IMG/VR virus record: IMGVR_UViG_3300025030_000275
Coordinates: 1 to 37,149 of that record
Direction: 5' to 3' (one strand)
DNA length: 37,149 nucleotides
Source: a virus
The translations under genes and the position numbers were made by a program. The notes under the pieces were generated by a model. That model was not told the origin of the DNA. It did no database searches and worked only from the letters and a program-made list of their open reading frames with translations. Positions within the stretch are counted from its first letter, which is position 1. Every line of letters starts with the position of its first letter. Below are positions 44 to 4,848 of this stretch, piece after piece.

Positions 44-481
44 ATGGGCCGACCACGAAAGCCGACGCAACTGAAACTGATCCAGGGGACCGCGCAACCG
101 TGCCGGATCAACCCTGACGAGCCGAAGCCGGACATTGACATCCCCGAAATCCCTCATCACCTCTCGAAGCCGGCCCGCGATGAGTGGCGCCGGATCACGC
201 CGATCCTGAAGAGTATGGGGCTGATCTCCCACATGGATCTGGCCGAGCTCACCATGTACTGCGGGGCCTGGGGGAACTATATCGCAGCGGAGAACGCGAT
301 GAGGCGCAACGGGGGCATGGTGGTAGACGGCAAGGTCTCTCCCTGGGTGAAGATCAGCAAGGAGAGCAAGCTGCTGGCTCACAAGTTCTTGGTGGAGTTC
401 GGGCTTACCCCTGCGAGCCGCACCCGGGTCAGCGGTAAGAAGCAGGAACCCATGAAAAAGAAAAGGCTGGACTTCCTATGA
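44..481 (+). CDS. terS: Terminase small subunit, P27 family
   Basis: This 145-residue protein is the likely small, DNA-recognising subunit of the packaging motor. It starts with the basic MGRPRKPT segment typical of P27-type small terminases. The middle part (about residues 35-120) is helical and contains the family-like pattern of L-x-x-P-A-R-D-E-W near residue 45. A strong ribosome binding site (AAGGGGG) lies 8-9 bases before the ATG. The stop overlaps the start of the large terminase by four bases (ATGA), which fits translational coupling and the usual terS-terL order. The length is normal for the family. The identification rests on the N-terminal signature and the neighbour; no DNA site for packaging start is visible in the 43 bases upstream. 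Confidence 0.88.
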   Translation: MGRPRKPTQLKLIQGTAQPCRINPDEPKPDIDIPEIPHHLSKPARDEWRRITPILKSMGLISHMDLAELTMYCGAWGNYIAAENAMRRNGGMVVDGKVSPWVKISKESKLLAHKFLVEFGLTPASRTRVSGKKQEPMKKKRLDFL

Positions 482-2148
482 CCCACGTCGAAGCAGCAAA
501 CCAGTACATCACCGATGTGCTTAACGGAACCATCCCTGCCTGTCAATTCGTCAAACTCGCCTGCCAGCGCCAGGTGGATGACCTGAATGCGTCGAAGTTG
601 GCGCCTTTCATTTACCGATTTGATGAGGCCGCAGCGGAGCGGGTCTGCAAATTTATCGAAGTGACTCCACATACTAAGGGGATTTGGGCTGCCAGGGGGG
701 AGACAGTCAAACTGGGGCACTGGCAATCATTCCACCTCACAACCGCCTTCGGGTGGCTCAATAAGACCACCGGGTTCCGACGCTTCCGGTTGGTCTACAT
801 CGAGGTGCCGCGTAAGAATGGAAAGTCGGCCGAGACTTCCCCCGTGGGCTTATACCTGGCTTTCGCTGATGGTGAATTCGGAGCAGAGGTCTACAGTGGG
901 GCGTCCACCGAAAAGCAGGCATGGGAGGTTTTTAGACCAGCCAGGCTGATCATGGAGAGGGACGTGGAGCTCCGCGAGCACCTAGGAGTGACCGTCAACG
1001 CAAAGACTCTCAATAGGGCTTCAGACATGAGCCGGTTTGAACCCATAGTTGGCAAGCCTGGCGATGGATCCAGCCCCCACGGTGCGCTTATTGACGAGTT
1101 CCACGAACACGATACTGATGCTCTCTTTAGCACCATGATCACCGGCATGGGTGCCCGCTCGCAGCCGATGGCGTGGATCATAACAACCTCAGGCGTAAAT
1201 CTTGGCGGGCCCTGTTATGCCCTTCGGAATGACATCATCAAAATTCTTGAGAAGACCTACGACGCGCCCGACACCTTCGGGATCATCTACACCATCGACC
1301 CGGGAATAGACTGGACCTCGCCCGAAGCCCTGCAGATGGCAAACCCGAACTACGGCATCTCCGTCTCCGAAGAGTTCCTTCTTGCTGAGCAACGCAAAGC
1401 GATCCAGTCGGCGCACCTCCAGAACAATTTCAAAACGAAGCACCTCAATATCTGGTGCAGTTCGTCGGCCGCCTTCTTCAACATGCAGAGCCTGGAGGCC
1501 TGCGCTGATCCTTCTCTCTCAATCGAAGACTTCCACGGCGAGCGGGCCATGGTCGCGCTGGACGTAGGTTCAAAGATCGATATGGCTGGTCTGGTGGCAC
1601 TCTTCCGGAAAGATATTGACGGTAAAACTCACTATTACGCTTTCGCAAAGCCGTACATCCCCGAAGAAACAGCCTGGGATCCGAAGAATAAGCAGTATCA
1701 ATCCTGGGCGAATGCCGGTCTCCTGACAGTGACGAGCGGTAACATGATCGACTACGAGCAGATCGAAGTGGATAATTTGGAGTGGGCGGGGAAGTTTGAG
1801 ATAGTGGAGGAGGCGTTTGACCCTTGGAATGCCGCCCAATTTGCCCTCAGGATGGCGAACGAGGGCTTGACAATGGTAGAGGTGCCTCAGAATGTGCGCA
1901 GCCATTCAGCGCCAATGAAGGAGCTTGCGGCCCTTATCGGTGCCGGTCGCTTCCACTATGACGGGAATCCGGTCTTAAAGTGGATGTTTTCGAACGTGGT
2001 TGCGAAGGTCGACGCCAACGACAATGTGTTTCCGAGGAAGGAGCGGAATGAATCGAAAATTGACCTAGTTGTTGGAATAATTATGGCACTAGGAAGATGG
2101 ATAGTGCAAGAGGACGATGTGTGTGAAACTAGGATAAGATTTTTATGA
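478..2148 (+). CDS. terL: Terminase large subunit (ATPase and nuclease)
   Basis: This 556-residue protein is the motor ATPase and headful or cos nuclease that packages DNA into the prohead. The N-terminal ATPase shows a deviant Walker A motif, PRKNGKS (residues 111-117), and Walker B, HGALIDEFHEH (201-211, DE at 206-207), followed by the coupling-type motif IITTSG (235-239). The C-terminal RNase H-like nuclease has acidic residues at D362 (ALDVGSKID), D448 (FDPWNA) and D529 (ESKIDL). The last 30 or so codons (from about 2050) switch to AT-rich codon use (agg ata aga ttt tta), unlike the GC-rich body. A second copy of the same C-terminal peptide follows the next two genes at 3297-3341. The tail of this gene therefore appears to have been supplied by an inserted HNH element while keeping the frame intact. 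The length is normal. Confidence 0.93.
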   Translation: MTHVEAANQYITDVLNGTIPACQFVKLACQRQVDDLNASKLAPFIYRFDEAAAERVCKFIEVTPHTKGIWAARGETVKLGHWQSFHLTTAFGWLNKTTGFRRFRLVYIEVPRKNGKSAETSPVGLYLAFADGEFGAEVYSGASTEKQAWEVFRPARLIMERDVELREHLGVTVNAKTLNRASDMSRFEPIVGKPGDGSSPHGALIDEFHEHDTDALFSTMITGMGARSQPMAWIITTSGVNLGGPCYALRNDIIKILEKTYDAPDTFGIIYTIDPGIDWTSPEALQMANPNYGISVSEEFLLAEQRKAIQSAHLQNNFKTKHLNIWCSSSAAFFNMQSLEACADPSLSIEDFHGERAMVALDVGSKIDMAGLVALFRKDIDGKTHYYAFAKPYIPEETAWDPKNKQYQSWANAGLLTVTSGNMIDYEQIEVDNLEWAGKFEIVEEAFDPWNAAQFALRMANEGLTMVEVPQNVRSHSAPMKELAALIGAGRFHYDGNPVLKWMFSNVVAKVDANDNVFPRKERNESKIDLVVGIIMALGRWIVQEDDVCETRIRFL

Positions 2149-2160
2149 CAGTCATTGTGG

Positions 2161-2189
2161 TTGCTTTGAGACAAAACAGATAGTATAGT
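2161..2189 (+). promoter_or_regulatory. Candidate promoter of the HNH gene, possibly leaderless
   Basis: TTGCTT at 2161-2166 and TATAGT at 2184-2189 are separated by 17 bases. The -10 matches the sigma-70 consensus at five of six positions; the -35 is poor. Transcription would start about seven bases later, at or next to the ATG at 2196. No Shine-Dalgarno sequence precedes that ATG, so the message may be leaderless. This is a pattern-based proposal only. Confidence 0.3.
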
Positions 2190-2195
2190 AGCGGC

Positions 2196-3026
2196 ATGAA
2201 AACAAAAAAATGCACGCTATGCCAATTAGAAATGCCAGCCACTGCAGAATTTTTCTATAGAAAGCCTGGGACTGAAGATAAACTTTTGAGCAGATGTATC
2301 AAGTGCATCTGTGCGGGCATGAAGGCCATATATTTAACAGACAGGGATTCACTGTTGGCAAAGAATCTTGCTTATAGAAATGCTAACCGTGAAAATTACA
2401 ACGCCGCCGCAGCAGCGAGAAGAAAGGCGAATCCAGAGCGCACGAAGCAAATAGCCAAAAGAAGCCATGATAAGAACAAAGAAAGAAGAAATGCAGATTC
2501 CCGTGACCAGTGGGTCAGAAACAAGGATAAATACAAGGCCAGCGCGTTAGTACGAATTGCAGAAATGAGGGAGGTTTATAACGCAACTCGTCGTAAAAAG
2601 GATAGGGCAAACCCGGATACAAACATAAAACAAAAGGCTTATCGCCTTGCCAATATCGAAAAACATAAGGCCAATGCGAGAGCAAGATGGGCTAAGGCAA
2701 CGCCTCAGGTGAGATTGAGGACGGGGATAGGCGCAGCAATAGCCCATTCCTTGAAAGGTAGAACTAAGGGCGGCAACGGCTGGCAGACTATCTTGGGCTA
2801 CACTATTCACGACCTCGTGAAACATCTTGAATCCAAATTCCAAGAAGGGATGTCGTGGGAAAATTACGGGCTGTTTGGTTGGCACGTTGACCACGTTAAG
2901 CCTGTATCTATGCACTCCTATGAAGAGGTGACGGATCAAGAATTTTTAGACTGCTGGGCCATTACGAACCTTCAGCCACTATGGGCGGCAGAAAATATGG
3001 CAAAGGGTAATAGGTGGATCGGATGA
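2196..3026 (+). CDS. HNH homing-type endonuclease
   Basis: This 276-residue protein is most likely a free-standing homing endonuclease. The N-terminus has a CxxC pair (CTLC near residue 7) and a second pair about 27 residues later (CIKC), a likely zinc knuckle. The middle (about residues 50-180) is made of repeating basic, helical units of the kind RxANxExxxAxxR, as in DNA-binding arms of phage HNH enzymes. The C-terminus holds the nuclease: GWHVDHVKPVS (catalytic His-Asp-His) followed by NLQPLWAAENMAKGNR, the classic NLQ...N..K end. It is much more AT-rich than its neighbours and has no ribosome binding site. It sits between two copies of the end of terL, which argues for insertion. HNH proteins that help packaging also sit near terminases, but the duplicated terL tail favours a mobile gene. 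Confidence 0.85.
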   Translation: MKTKKCTLCQLEMPATAEFFYRKPGTEDKLLSRCIKCICAGMKAIYLTDRDSLLAKNLAYRNANRENYNAAAAARRKANPERTKQIAKRSHDKNKERRNADSRDQWVRNKDKYKASALVRIAEMREVYNATRRKKDRANPDTNIKQKAYRLANIEKHKANARARWAKATPQVRLRTGIGAAIAHSLKGRTKGGNGWQTILGYTIHDLVKHLESKFQEGMSWENYGLFGWHVDHVKPVSMHSYEEVTDQEFLDCWAITNLQPLWAAENMAKGNRWIG

Positions 3027-3262
3027 GAATCGAAAGCGTCAAGTGGGACAAAGACTTTGAAGGCGTGGGTATTTTGGCATCAACCGCCGAATACACCTTT
3101 ATCGACCGCGAGGATTGGGAACATCAAGGCGAAGAATCCGCAGAGACCGTCTTTCTTTGCCAGGCTTGCGGATGGGAAGGCGATGAGCTTTATATGACGA
3201 ATGATTGCTGGTCGGTTTGCCCTGAATGCGCATCAGGTTTTCAGATCAAGCGGCGTTTCTAG
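3023..3262 (+). CDS. Small zinc-ribbon protein carried with the HNH gene
   Basis: This 79-residue protein starts at the ATG that overlaps the HNH stop (ATGA); another ATG three codons upstream is possible but would sit deeper in the HNH gene. The C-terminal half has two CxxC pairs, CQAC and CPEC, about 20 residues apart, a zinc-ribbon pattern. The N-terminal half is acidic and aromatic-rich, with no recognisable domain. Tight coupling to the HNH gene, and its position inside the segment bounded by the two terL tails, suggest that it is cargo or a partner of the mobile endonuclease. The function is not known. Confidence 0.6.
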   Translation: MRIESVKWDKDFEGVGILASTAEYTFIDREDWEHQGEESAETVFLCQACGWEGDELYMTNDCWSVCPECASGFQIKRRF

Positions 3263-3275
3263 CCCCCCACAACTA

Positions 3276-3341
3276 GCGCTACGAGGGCTGAGTGGGTGGA
3301 CCAAGGATGACGTCACCGAAACCCGCATCCGCTTCCTATAA
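3276..3341 (+). pseudogene. Orphaned original 3' end of terL
   Basis: Read in the frame that ends at TAA 3339-3341, this stretch encodes ...GWTKDDVTETRIRFL and stop. The intact terL ends in WIVQEDDVCETRIRFL. Ten of the last eleven residues agree, yet the codons differ at almost every third position (cgc atc cgc ttc cta here against agg ata aga ttt tta upstream). Upstream of about 3276 the frame no longer resembles TerL, and it lacks a start. The GC-rich codons match the rest of terL, so this looks like the original gene end displaced by the HNH insertion. Confidence 0.8.
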
Positions 3342-3442: not shown

Positions 3443-3607
3443 TTGAAAAAGCTCCTTTCTTCCTTCGATCTGCAAGACCTCCAGCTCGTATCCGGCATTG
3501 CCATGCTCGGGTACGGGCTCTTTCTCGTTTATCCCCCTGCTGCTTTTATTGTTGTTGGTTCGCTGCTGCTATCGCCCTTCCTGCTCTCAGCGTGGAGGGC
3601 TAAATAA
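3443..3607 (+). CDS. Small membrane protein between terminase and portal
   Basis: The likely start is TTG at 3443, preceded by GAGG about nine bases upstream; a TTG at 3410 in the same frame would add 11 residues. The 54-residue product is mostly hydrophobic, with two predicted membrane segments (roughly residues 14-30 and 33-48) joined by a short YPP turn, and ends in the basic WRAK. The stop overlaps the portal start by one base (TAATG), so the two are translationally coupled. No family is recognised. A small two-pass protein could be a holin by shape, but the location in the head module is not typical for lysis genes, so the role is left open. Confidence 0.5.
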   Translation: MKKLLSSFDLQDLQLVSGIAMLGYGLFLVYPPAAFIVVGSLLLSPFLLSAWRAK

Positions 3608-4848
3608 TGGGCGTCCTCACCCGCTTATTCCAGCCGCAAGCGTCCCTTTCCTCTGACGATATCCGCAAGGCGCTGTCCGATGGTGGCTATGGAGGTTACG
3701 GCGGGACTTCCGGCAGTGGGGTTACGGTTTCTCCACAGACGGCCATGTGCGTCTCAGCATTCTTCGCCTGCGTGCTGGTCATCTCCCAGACAGTCGGGAA
3801 GTTGCCGCTGGATCTTTACCGAAGGGTCGGCCGCAGCGGCAAACCTGGCGGCAAGGAACTCGCCACAGATCACCCGCTTTATTCTCTCGTTGGCGCAAGG
3901 CCCAACAAGTTCAATAACTCCCAATCTTTCCGAGAAATGCTGACGGCGCACACCTGCCTGCGTGGTAACGCTTTCGCCTTCAAGAACAAGGTCGGCGGCG
4001 GGCGGCTCTACGAATTGCTGCCGCTGGAGTCGAACGCAGTCGGCATCAACCGCGACCCGCGCACATGGGAAATCACCTACACGGTGAGCCAGAAGGACGG
4101 CATCAACGGCATCTACGGGCCGGATCAGATATTTCACCTGATGGACATGACGCTGAACGGATACCAGGGACTCACCCGTATATCCTACGCCCGCGAGACG
4201 GTCGGGCTGACTGCGGCGGCTGAAATGTTTGGCGCGAAGTCCTTCAAGAACGGTGCGAAGCCTTCAGGCGTCTATTCTTCATCCAAAACGCTGAAAGATG
4301 GAGCGTTTGAGCGGCTGAAAAAGGAGCTAAACGAGGGCTTTTCCGGGGAAAATGCCAATAACGCCATGATCGTGGAGAACGGCGACACATGGACACCCTC
4401 GCAGATGTCTAACGACGATCTGCAATATATGGCCTTGAGACAGTTCCAGATTCCTGAAATCGCCCGCTTTTTCAACATGCCGCTGCATAAAATTCAGGAC
4501 ATGAGCGCCAGCACGAACAATAACATCGAGCAGATGGCGCTGGAGTTCTACACAGACTGCATGATGCCATGGCTGGTCAGGTGGGAGTCGGCGCTTAATA
4601 CCCAACTGCTGAGCGCTCAGGAGCAGAAAGAGTATTTTTTCAAGTTCGACGTTGACGAAATACTTCGCGCTGACATGAAGAGCCGCTTTGAAGCCTACGC
4701 TTCCGGTATTTCATCCGAGATCCTGAACCCGAACGAGTGCAGGGAGTGGGAAGACCTCAACCCTTACGAGGGTGGAGAGGTTTATCTGAACAGGAACACG
4801 AAGCCCGCGCCAGTTGCCGGGCAAGGAGGCAAAAATGGCGCGGAGTAA
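3607..4848 (+). CDS. Portal protein, HK97 family
   Basis: This 413-residue protein forms the dodecameric ring at the capsid vertex through which DNA enters and leaves. It shows the HK97 portal pattern: a Gly-rich N-terminus, then SPQTAMCVSAFFACVLVISQ (about residues 40-60) leading into the clip and stem region, KLPLDLYRR, and later ALRQFQIPEIARFFNMPLHK (about 275-300) followed by NNIEQMALEFYTD. The length is typical. It lies between terL and the ClpP-like protease, the standard order for this head type. The stop overlaps the protease gene by 14 bases. Confidence 0.92.
   Translation: MGVLTRLFQPQASLSSDDIRKALSDGGYGGYGGTSGSGVTVSPQTAMCVSAFFACVLVISQTVGKLPLDLYRRVGRSGKPGGKELATDHPLYSLVGARPNKFNNSQSFREMLTAHTCLRGNAFAFKNKVGGGRLYELLPLESNAVGINRDPRTWEITYTVSQKDGINGIYGPDQIFHLMDMTLNGYQGLTRISYARETVGLTAAAEMFGAKSFKNGAKPSGVYSSSKTLKDGAFERLKKELNEGFSGENANNAMIVENGDTWTPSQMSNDDLQYMALRQFQIPEIARFFNMPLHKIQDMSASTNNNIEQMALEFYTDCMMPWLVRWESALNTQLLSAQEQKEYFFKFDVDEILRADMKSRFEAYASGISSEILNPNECREWEDLNPYEGGEVYLNRNTKPAPVAGQGGKNGAE

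Follow-up and report, generated by a model that had tools for sequence, protein, structure and literature searches.

In a viral DNA stretch of 37,149 nt (IMG/VR record IMGVR_UViG_3300025030_000275, positions 1 to 37,149; hereafter the window), the terminase gene terL ends in a peptide that is encoded a second time, with different codons, downstream of an HNH endonuclease gene. We interpret the insert as a free-standing HNH homing cassette, lacking both intron and intein, that probably consists of a replacement 3' end for terL plus the endonuclease gene and so rescues the gene it enters; we put the probability of this reading at roughly three in four (0.77). Sequence comparison establishes the layout of the two tails, the compositional switch inside terL, the position of the insert with respect to relatives, and the recurrence of the arrangement with the same nuclease family. 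A preliminary description of this DNA had proposed that an HNH gene was inserted into terL with a replacement end and left the old end behind, which is supported by synteny and by two further cases. The features of the locus are listed in Table 1.

Table 1. Features at the terL-portal locus of the window
Feature	Coordinates	Strand	Remarks
terS	44-481		Left end of the window, before terL
terL body (ATPase and most of nuclease domain)	478..2046	+	Phage-like codon usage, GC3 0.68
Putative replacement tail of terL (codons 524-556 plus stop)	2047..2148	+	AT-rich, HNH-like codon choice
AT-rich spacer, terL to HNH gene	2149..2195	+	GC 0.35-0.38
HNH endonuclease gene, 276 aa	2196..3026	+	PHROG 1035 'endonuclease VII', 5.3e-11
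Zinc-ribbon ORF, 82 aa (CxxC x2)	3014..3262	+	Weak zinc-ribbon matches
Orphan ALRGLSGWTKDDVTETRIRFL-stop, putative former end of terL	3279..3341	+	No start codon of its own; GC3 about 0.7
Small membrane protein gene	3443..3607	+	Start codon inferred; homologues directly after terL in L001 and L212
Portal gene	3607..4848	+	Right-hand synteny anchor; Pfam Phage_portal 9.1e-97

The terL gene (478-2148) is full length and contiguous. Its body matches the Pfam families TerL_ATPase (3.6e-24) and TerL_nuclease (1.7e-45), and its C-terminus reads ...KIDLVVGIIMALGRWIVQEDDVCETRIRFL followed by the stop, the final residues being DDVCETRIRFL. Composition changes abruptly near the 3' end: GC3 is 0.27 over the last 33 codons compared with 0.68 before them, and these codons form the lowest-GC3 33-codon stretch in the gene (permutation 11/20000). 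The best change point fell at codon 524 (nt 2047), with codons 522-530 nearly equal in fit, and the earlier placement of the switch 'around D529' was about right. The codon choice of the tail is HNH-like, with a log-likelihood ratio of +18.8, and segments of the terL body reached at most +1.1. The resemblance between tail and HNH gene claimed earlier thus holds for codon choice but not for the degree of AT-richness, in which the tail exceeds the HNH gene (GC3 0.27 vs 0.47). The tail presumably came in together with the HNH gene.

The frame at 3276-3341, downstream of the HNH gene and the zinc-ribbon ORF, translates to LALRGLSGWTKDDVTETRIRFL and ends in a stop codon. In a gapped local alignment, the in-gene tail and this orphan share 11 identical degenerate residues, 10 of which are encoded by different codons, and their nucleotide identity is 30/60 (50%), confirming the in-frame, synonymously recoded duplication that had been noted from the sequence. 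The duplication itself is real, but its extent had to be revised, because the orphan begins at about 3279, right after the codon matching M536, and not at DDV. Among 187 terL loci, the window gave the best match between a terL C-terminus and an in-frame, stop-terminated peptide downstream of it, with a score of 51 (next 39). When compared with 119 stretches downstream of HNH genes, the window tail reached 51 in its own stretch but no more than 37 in any of the other 118, and none of 3000 shuffles gave 51. The composition of the orphan is phage-like, unlike that of the in-gene tail (codon log-likelihood ratio -14). An exact-peptide scan of viral contigs for VxETRIRFL-stop gave no match outside the window. 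Up to codon 545, the terL of the closest relative, L001, is closer to the in-gene tail than to the orphan; this counts against a simple 'foreign tail' history, from which it would not be expected.

The HNH gene is a separate ORF that follows the terL stop. The protein is composed of an N-terminal zinc-binding region (CxxC...CxxC), a long helical middle and a C-terminal HNH domain. The catalytic motif (DH ... N ... N/H) is present, and residues D232, H233, P236, N258, N267, and K270 are invariant in a 17-sequence alignment. The AlphaFold2 model (pLDDT 73, pTM 0.38) places helices at residues 35-186, and its HNH-domain part was too weak to support a fold search. A PDB sequence search returned weak matches to the helical middle only, which were taken as chance, and a search of three bacterial genomes gave no match for the HNH protein. 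The zinc-ribbon ORF (3014-3262) is not AT-rich, its codon usage is not HNH-like, and a search for its phage homologues found none. It may be a passenger or a phage gene, and may lie outside the element; that it separates the HNH gene from the orphan in the window counts against the cassette. An inverted repeat, CTAGTTGTTGG / CCCACAACTAG (2065-2075 and 3266-3276), lies near both edges of the putative cassette and could be due to chance, several repeats as long occurring within the same 1.8 kb.

Relatives of the window were compared across the terL-portal interval. The gap between the two genes is shorter than 300 nt in 174 of 180 relatives, compared with 1459 nt in the window, and the HNH gene is sporadic at this site, nearly all relatives lacking it in the terL-portal interval. 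Two empty loci, L001 and L212, allow a direct comparison. The stop codon of the orphan lies 265 nt from the portal gene, and the terL stop lies 271 nt from it in L001 and 282 nt in L212, indicating that the orphan occupies the position of a terL stop and that about 1.1-1.2 kb has been placed before it. L001 (IMGVR 3300034091_000652) has the closest terL, 80% identical to that of the window. Its terL ends in ordinary codons with no AT-rich end, and as the sole close relative it gave no sign of the situation named in the preliminary description as contrary evidence, namely an HNH-less relative carrying the AT-rich tail. L212 has a portal 65% identical to that of the window, the same small membrane protein before the portal, and a terL ending in VNIRFI-stop. 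No HNH-less relative with the orphan's own tail in terL was found among the relatives examined. Portal-based relatives gave no exact empty site, the L211 contig being too short and L214 and L215 carrying an extra gene. That gene, at about 2280-2730 in L214/L215, is a small ORF for a MerR-like DNA-binding protein and separates terL from the membrane-protein gene, indicating that the terL-portal gap takes different insertions. A TerL search of 395 genomes of the phylum of L081 gave best matches reaching only 55% identity. Dating of the tail by codon comparison with L001 was uninformative, since synonymous sites are near saturation along the whole terL.

Two side observations concern the same relatives. 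In L001, the Walker A region of terL (...PRKNGK / S...) is interrupted near residue 120 by a LAGLIDADG-like intein (L001:3001-4020), which is a second kind of homing element in terL. The tails found beside related portals are RIRFL (window 3291-3341) and VNIRFI (L212:4680-4718), with terL bodies of different subfamilies; the terL tail may match the portal.

HNH-gene relatives were gathered from viral contigs and phage records, and 115 loci were screened for a second copy, at the downstream HNH-gene edge, of the C-terminus encoded by the immediately upstream gene. The top three loci were the window, the IMG/VR contig L282, and Verrucomicrobia phage P8625, and the upstream gene was terL in all of them. 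Mismatched pairs reached the scores of 50-52 in 2 of 2848 null comparisons, so the score alone is not decisive. The three loci are distinguished by the upstream ORF, in each case a terminase gene of more than 500 codons, and by a tail that in each case fits its own locus best of 119. Thus, the search for other insertions with a second tail, suggested earlier as a source of support, yielded two, both with related HNH genes.

In L282, terL ends in KVDGIVALIMALDGYIRHGNMLSVYNRRGIVSL, the HNH gene begins on the terL stop (TAATG) and its product is 45% identical to that of the window, and the HNH gene and the orphan MALDRAVRNEHVSPYSQRGVIAI-stop overlap at the HNH stop codon. The L282 terL is AT-rich throughout, so that composition cannot separate tail from body there. 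P8625 is an isolated, cultured phage with a GpA-type terminase, a family other than that of the window. Its terL ends in HYFDAEKMAMVCASMCKNLGIERVEKG (tail copy KMAMVCASMCKNLGI), and the orphan RMNAVCAAMCKNLAVAVDET-stop (copy RMNAVCAAMCKNLAV) starts at, and overlaps, the HNH stop. GC3 in P8625 is 0.605 in the terL body, 0.44 in the last 25 terL codons, 0.29 in the HNH gene, 0.70 in the orphan, and 0.67 in the portal gene; here again the orphan is phage-like in composition and the HNH gene AT-rich. The window and L282 are metagenomic contigs, and the recurrence of the layout in the cultured phage makes an assembly artefact unlikely.

A pattern scan of viral contigs for an HNH end followed by MA(L/I/V) gave 43 matches, among which L282 alone was such a case. 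No obvious orphan tail is seen at L226, L266 (723-2914), L347, and L355 despite a related HNH gene directly downstream of terL, and the tail is thus not universal; these loci are possibly older insertions whose tail was lost, or insertions outside coding sequence. Homologues of the window HNH gene are scattered over phage genomes, by helicase, polymerase, recombination, tail, and head genes. In Aeromonas phage 4_D05 and Acinetobacter phage YMC11/12/R2315 (L345:2950-4838 and L348:2932-4805), a related HNH gene immediately precedes terL and overlaps its start.

In all three cases the start of the orphan falls at or beside an ATG, 3-8 codons 3' of the codon for a conserved aspartate in the nuclease domain. 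The insertion points are KIDLVVGIIM|AL in the window, KVDGIVALI|MAL in L282, and HYFDAEK|MA in P8625. The aspartate at the P8625 site is presumably the corresponding catalytic residue in the GpA family. These positions fit the earlier proposal that the element targets nuclease-motif codons. The ATG-GC core shared by the three sites, a small sample, may form part of the nuclease target.

These observations suggest a working model for the element. The cassette would sit inside terL at the M codon of ...D(x)nIM|AL, just 3' of the conserved nuclease aspartate codons. The HNH protein would cleave an uninserted terL at this conserved site, and the break would be repaired by copying the cassette from a phage that already carries it. 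The terL body would provide the left homology arm, the donor's tail being co-converted, and the donor's stranded tail, homologous to the end of the recipient gene, would provide the right arm. The recipient's own terL end would then become the new stranded tail beside the HNH stop. With the reading frame completed by the supplied tail, the essential packaging enzyme would be kept whole. The different spelling of the tail would block re-cutting and would also protect the element from deletion by recombination of one tail with the other. Cutting, mobility, direction of transfer, and immunity of the recoded site are all inferred here from the arrangement of the DNA. We give about even odds to the broader view that this phage HNH family comprises natural 'rescue' homing drives, which bring along an essential gene's 3' end in recoded form, insert at conserved catalytic codons in unrelated terminase families, and retain a stranded end that would serve as right arm for the next round of homing.

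The arrangement might instead be the scar of a module junction, at which illegitimate recombination joined terL to a foreign head module (stranded terL end, membrane protein, and portal) and caught an HNH gene, with neither homing nor rescue. The window is mosaic, its terL being near that of L001 but its portal near those of L211 and L212; the L212 terL, of another subfamily, has an end resembling the RIRFL of the orphan; and nucleases are known at exchange boundaries (PMC10448857). We nevertheless consider this explanation unlikely, since it leaves three findings unexplained: the change in composition within terL at codon 524, the close similarity of the two tails where conservation is otherwise poor, and the reappearance of the layout at equivalent sites of two unrelated phages whose orphans adjoin the HNH stop codon.

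HNH genes such as HK97 gp74 and skunavirus HrdP adjoin terL, and one lies between terL and portal in 89/89 skunaviruses (PMC12724721). The window gene could likewise be a packaging factor that belongs beside terL, the tail duplication being incidental, and a search of the window for further genes with the DH(I/V/L)xP HNH motif gave none. However, the window begins at terS, so an upstream packaging HNH gene could have been cut off, and the absence of the HNH gene at this site from nearly all relatives, together with the scatter of its homologues, makes such a role very improbable. Least credible of all is an unrecognised intron holding the HNH gene, in which case splicing would connect terL with the downstream tail, and its upstream counterpart would be a read-through end. 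Phage group I introns commonly hold HNH genes, and phage ICP1 has a spliced terL (PMC10448857). No Rfam match was obtained at E<=5, the unspliced terL already encodes a full-length protein, and the overlap of the HNH stop with the orphan in P8625 and L282 leaves no space for a 3' intron core. A group I or group II intron or an intein interrupting the window terL was rejected on the same grounds, the gene being contiguous and full length.

The homing cassette favoured here resembles mobile ORFs of fungal mitochondria, which carry foreign C-termini and leave the native ones stranded, as in atp6 of Allomyces macrogynus and atp6, atp9, cox2, and nad3 of Glomus sp. (PMC3630166). In both settings an endonuclease ORF lies in an essential gene, a differently spelled C-terminus is supplied, the native one is stranded downstream, and the two ends are high in protein but low in DNA identity (91% and 63.5%, respectively, for Glomus atp6; PMC3630166). 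The supplied and stranded tails are present in the window, L282, and P8625. The Glomus elements encode LAGLIDADG or GIY-YIG nucleases in mitochondria, whereas the phage elements encode HNH proteins, reside in a terminase gene, and recur in unrelated terminase families. For the fungal ORFs, hybrid transcripts have been reported, as has biochemical support for mobility driven by the endonuclease (PMC3630166); the phage cases come from sequence analysis. We therefore file the phage cassette as working like a fungal mitochondrial mobile ORF, not as a member of that class. The rescue logic, which the preliminary description had noted as discussed for other mobile elements, is consequently not unprecedented.

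Free-standing homing endonucleases in or beside essential phage genes include T4 Seg/Mob, mobE in nrdA of Aeh1, and mobA in gene 60 of T4 (PMC2988022). Insertion of mobE or mobA breaks the target gene into pieces that have to reassemble, whereas in the window terL would stay whole through the supplied tail. In collaborative homing, exemplified by F-CphI with the psbA intron (PMC6083498) and by the ICP1 terL intron with a T5orf172 gene (PMC10448857), the free-standing nuclease's own target is likewise protected by altered sequence; there an intron gives the protection, and in the window presumably the recoded coding tail. HK97 gp74 and HrdP share the location of the HNH gene beside terminase genes (HrdP between terL and portal; PMC12724721), but they are conserved within their phage group, whereas the window HNH gene is sporadic and belongs to another HNH subfamily. 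The paper describing P8625 mentions neither the HNH gene nor the duplication (PMC4642752). A literature search, with most subscription papers outside reach, found no phage description of such a cassette; priority is not established.

Through such a cassette, a selfish nuclease could invade the coding region of an essential phage gene while leaving that gene in one piece and with no need of an intron or intein. The same solution appears in fungal mitochondria, and engineered rescue gene drives use it as well. Since a cultured phage is among the three cases and their related HNH proteins are found at equivalent sites, direct tests are feasible of target specificity, of protection by recoding, and of homing. 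As terL is a standard phylogenetic marker, the finding also means that the 3' end of this marker can be foreign.
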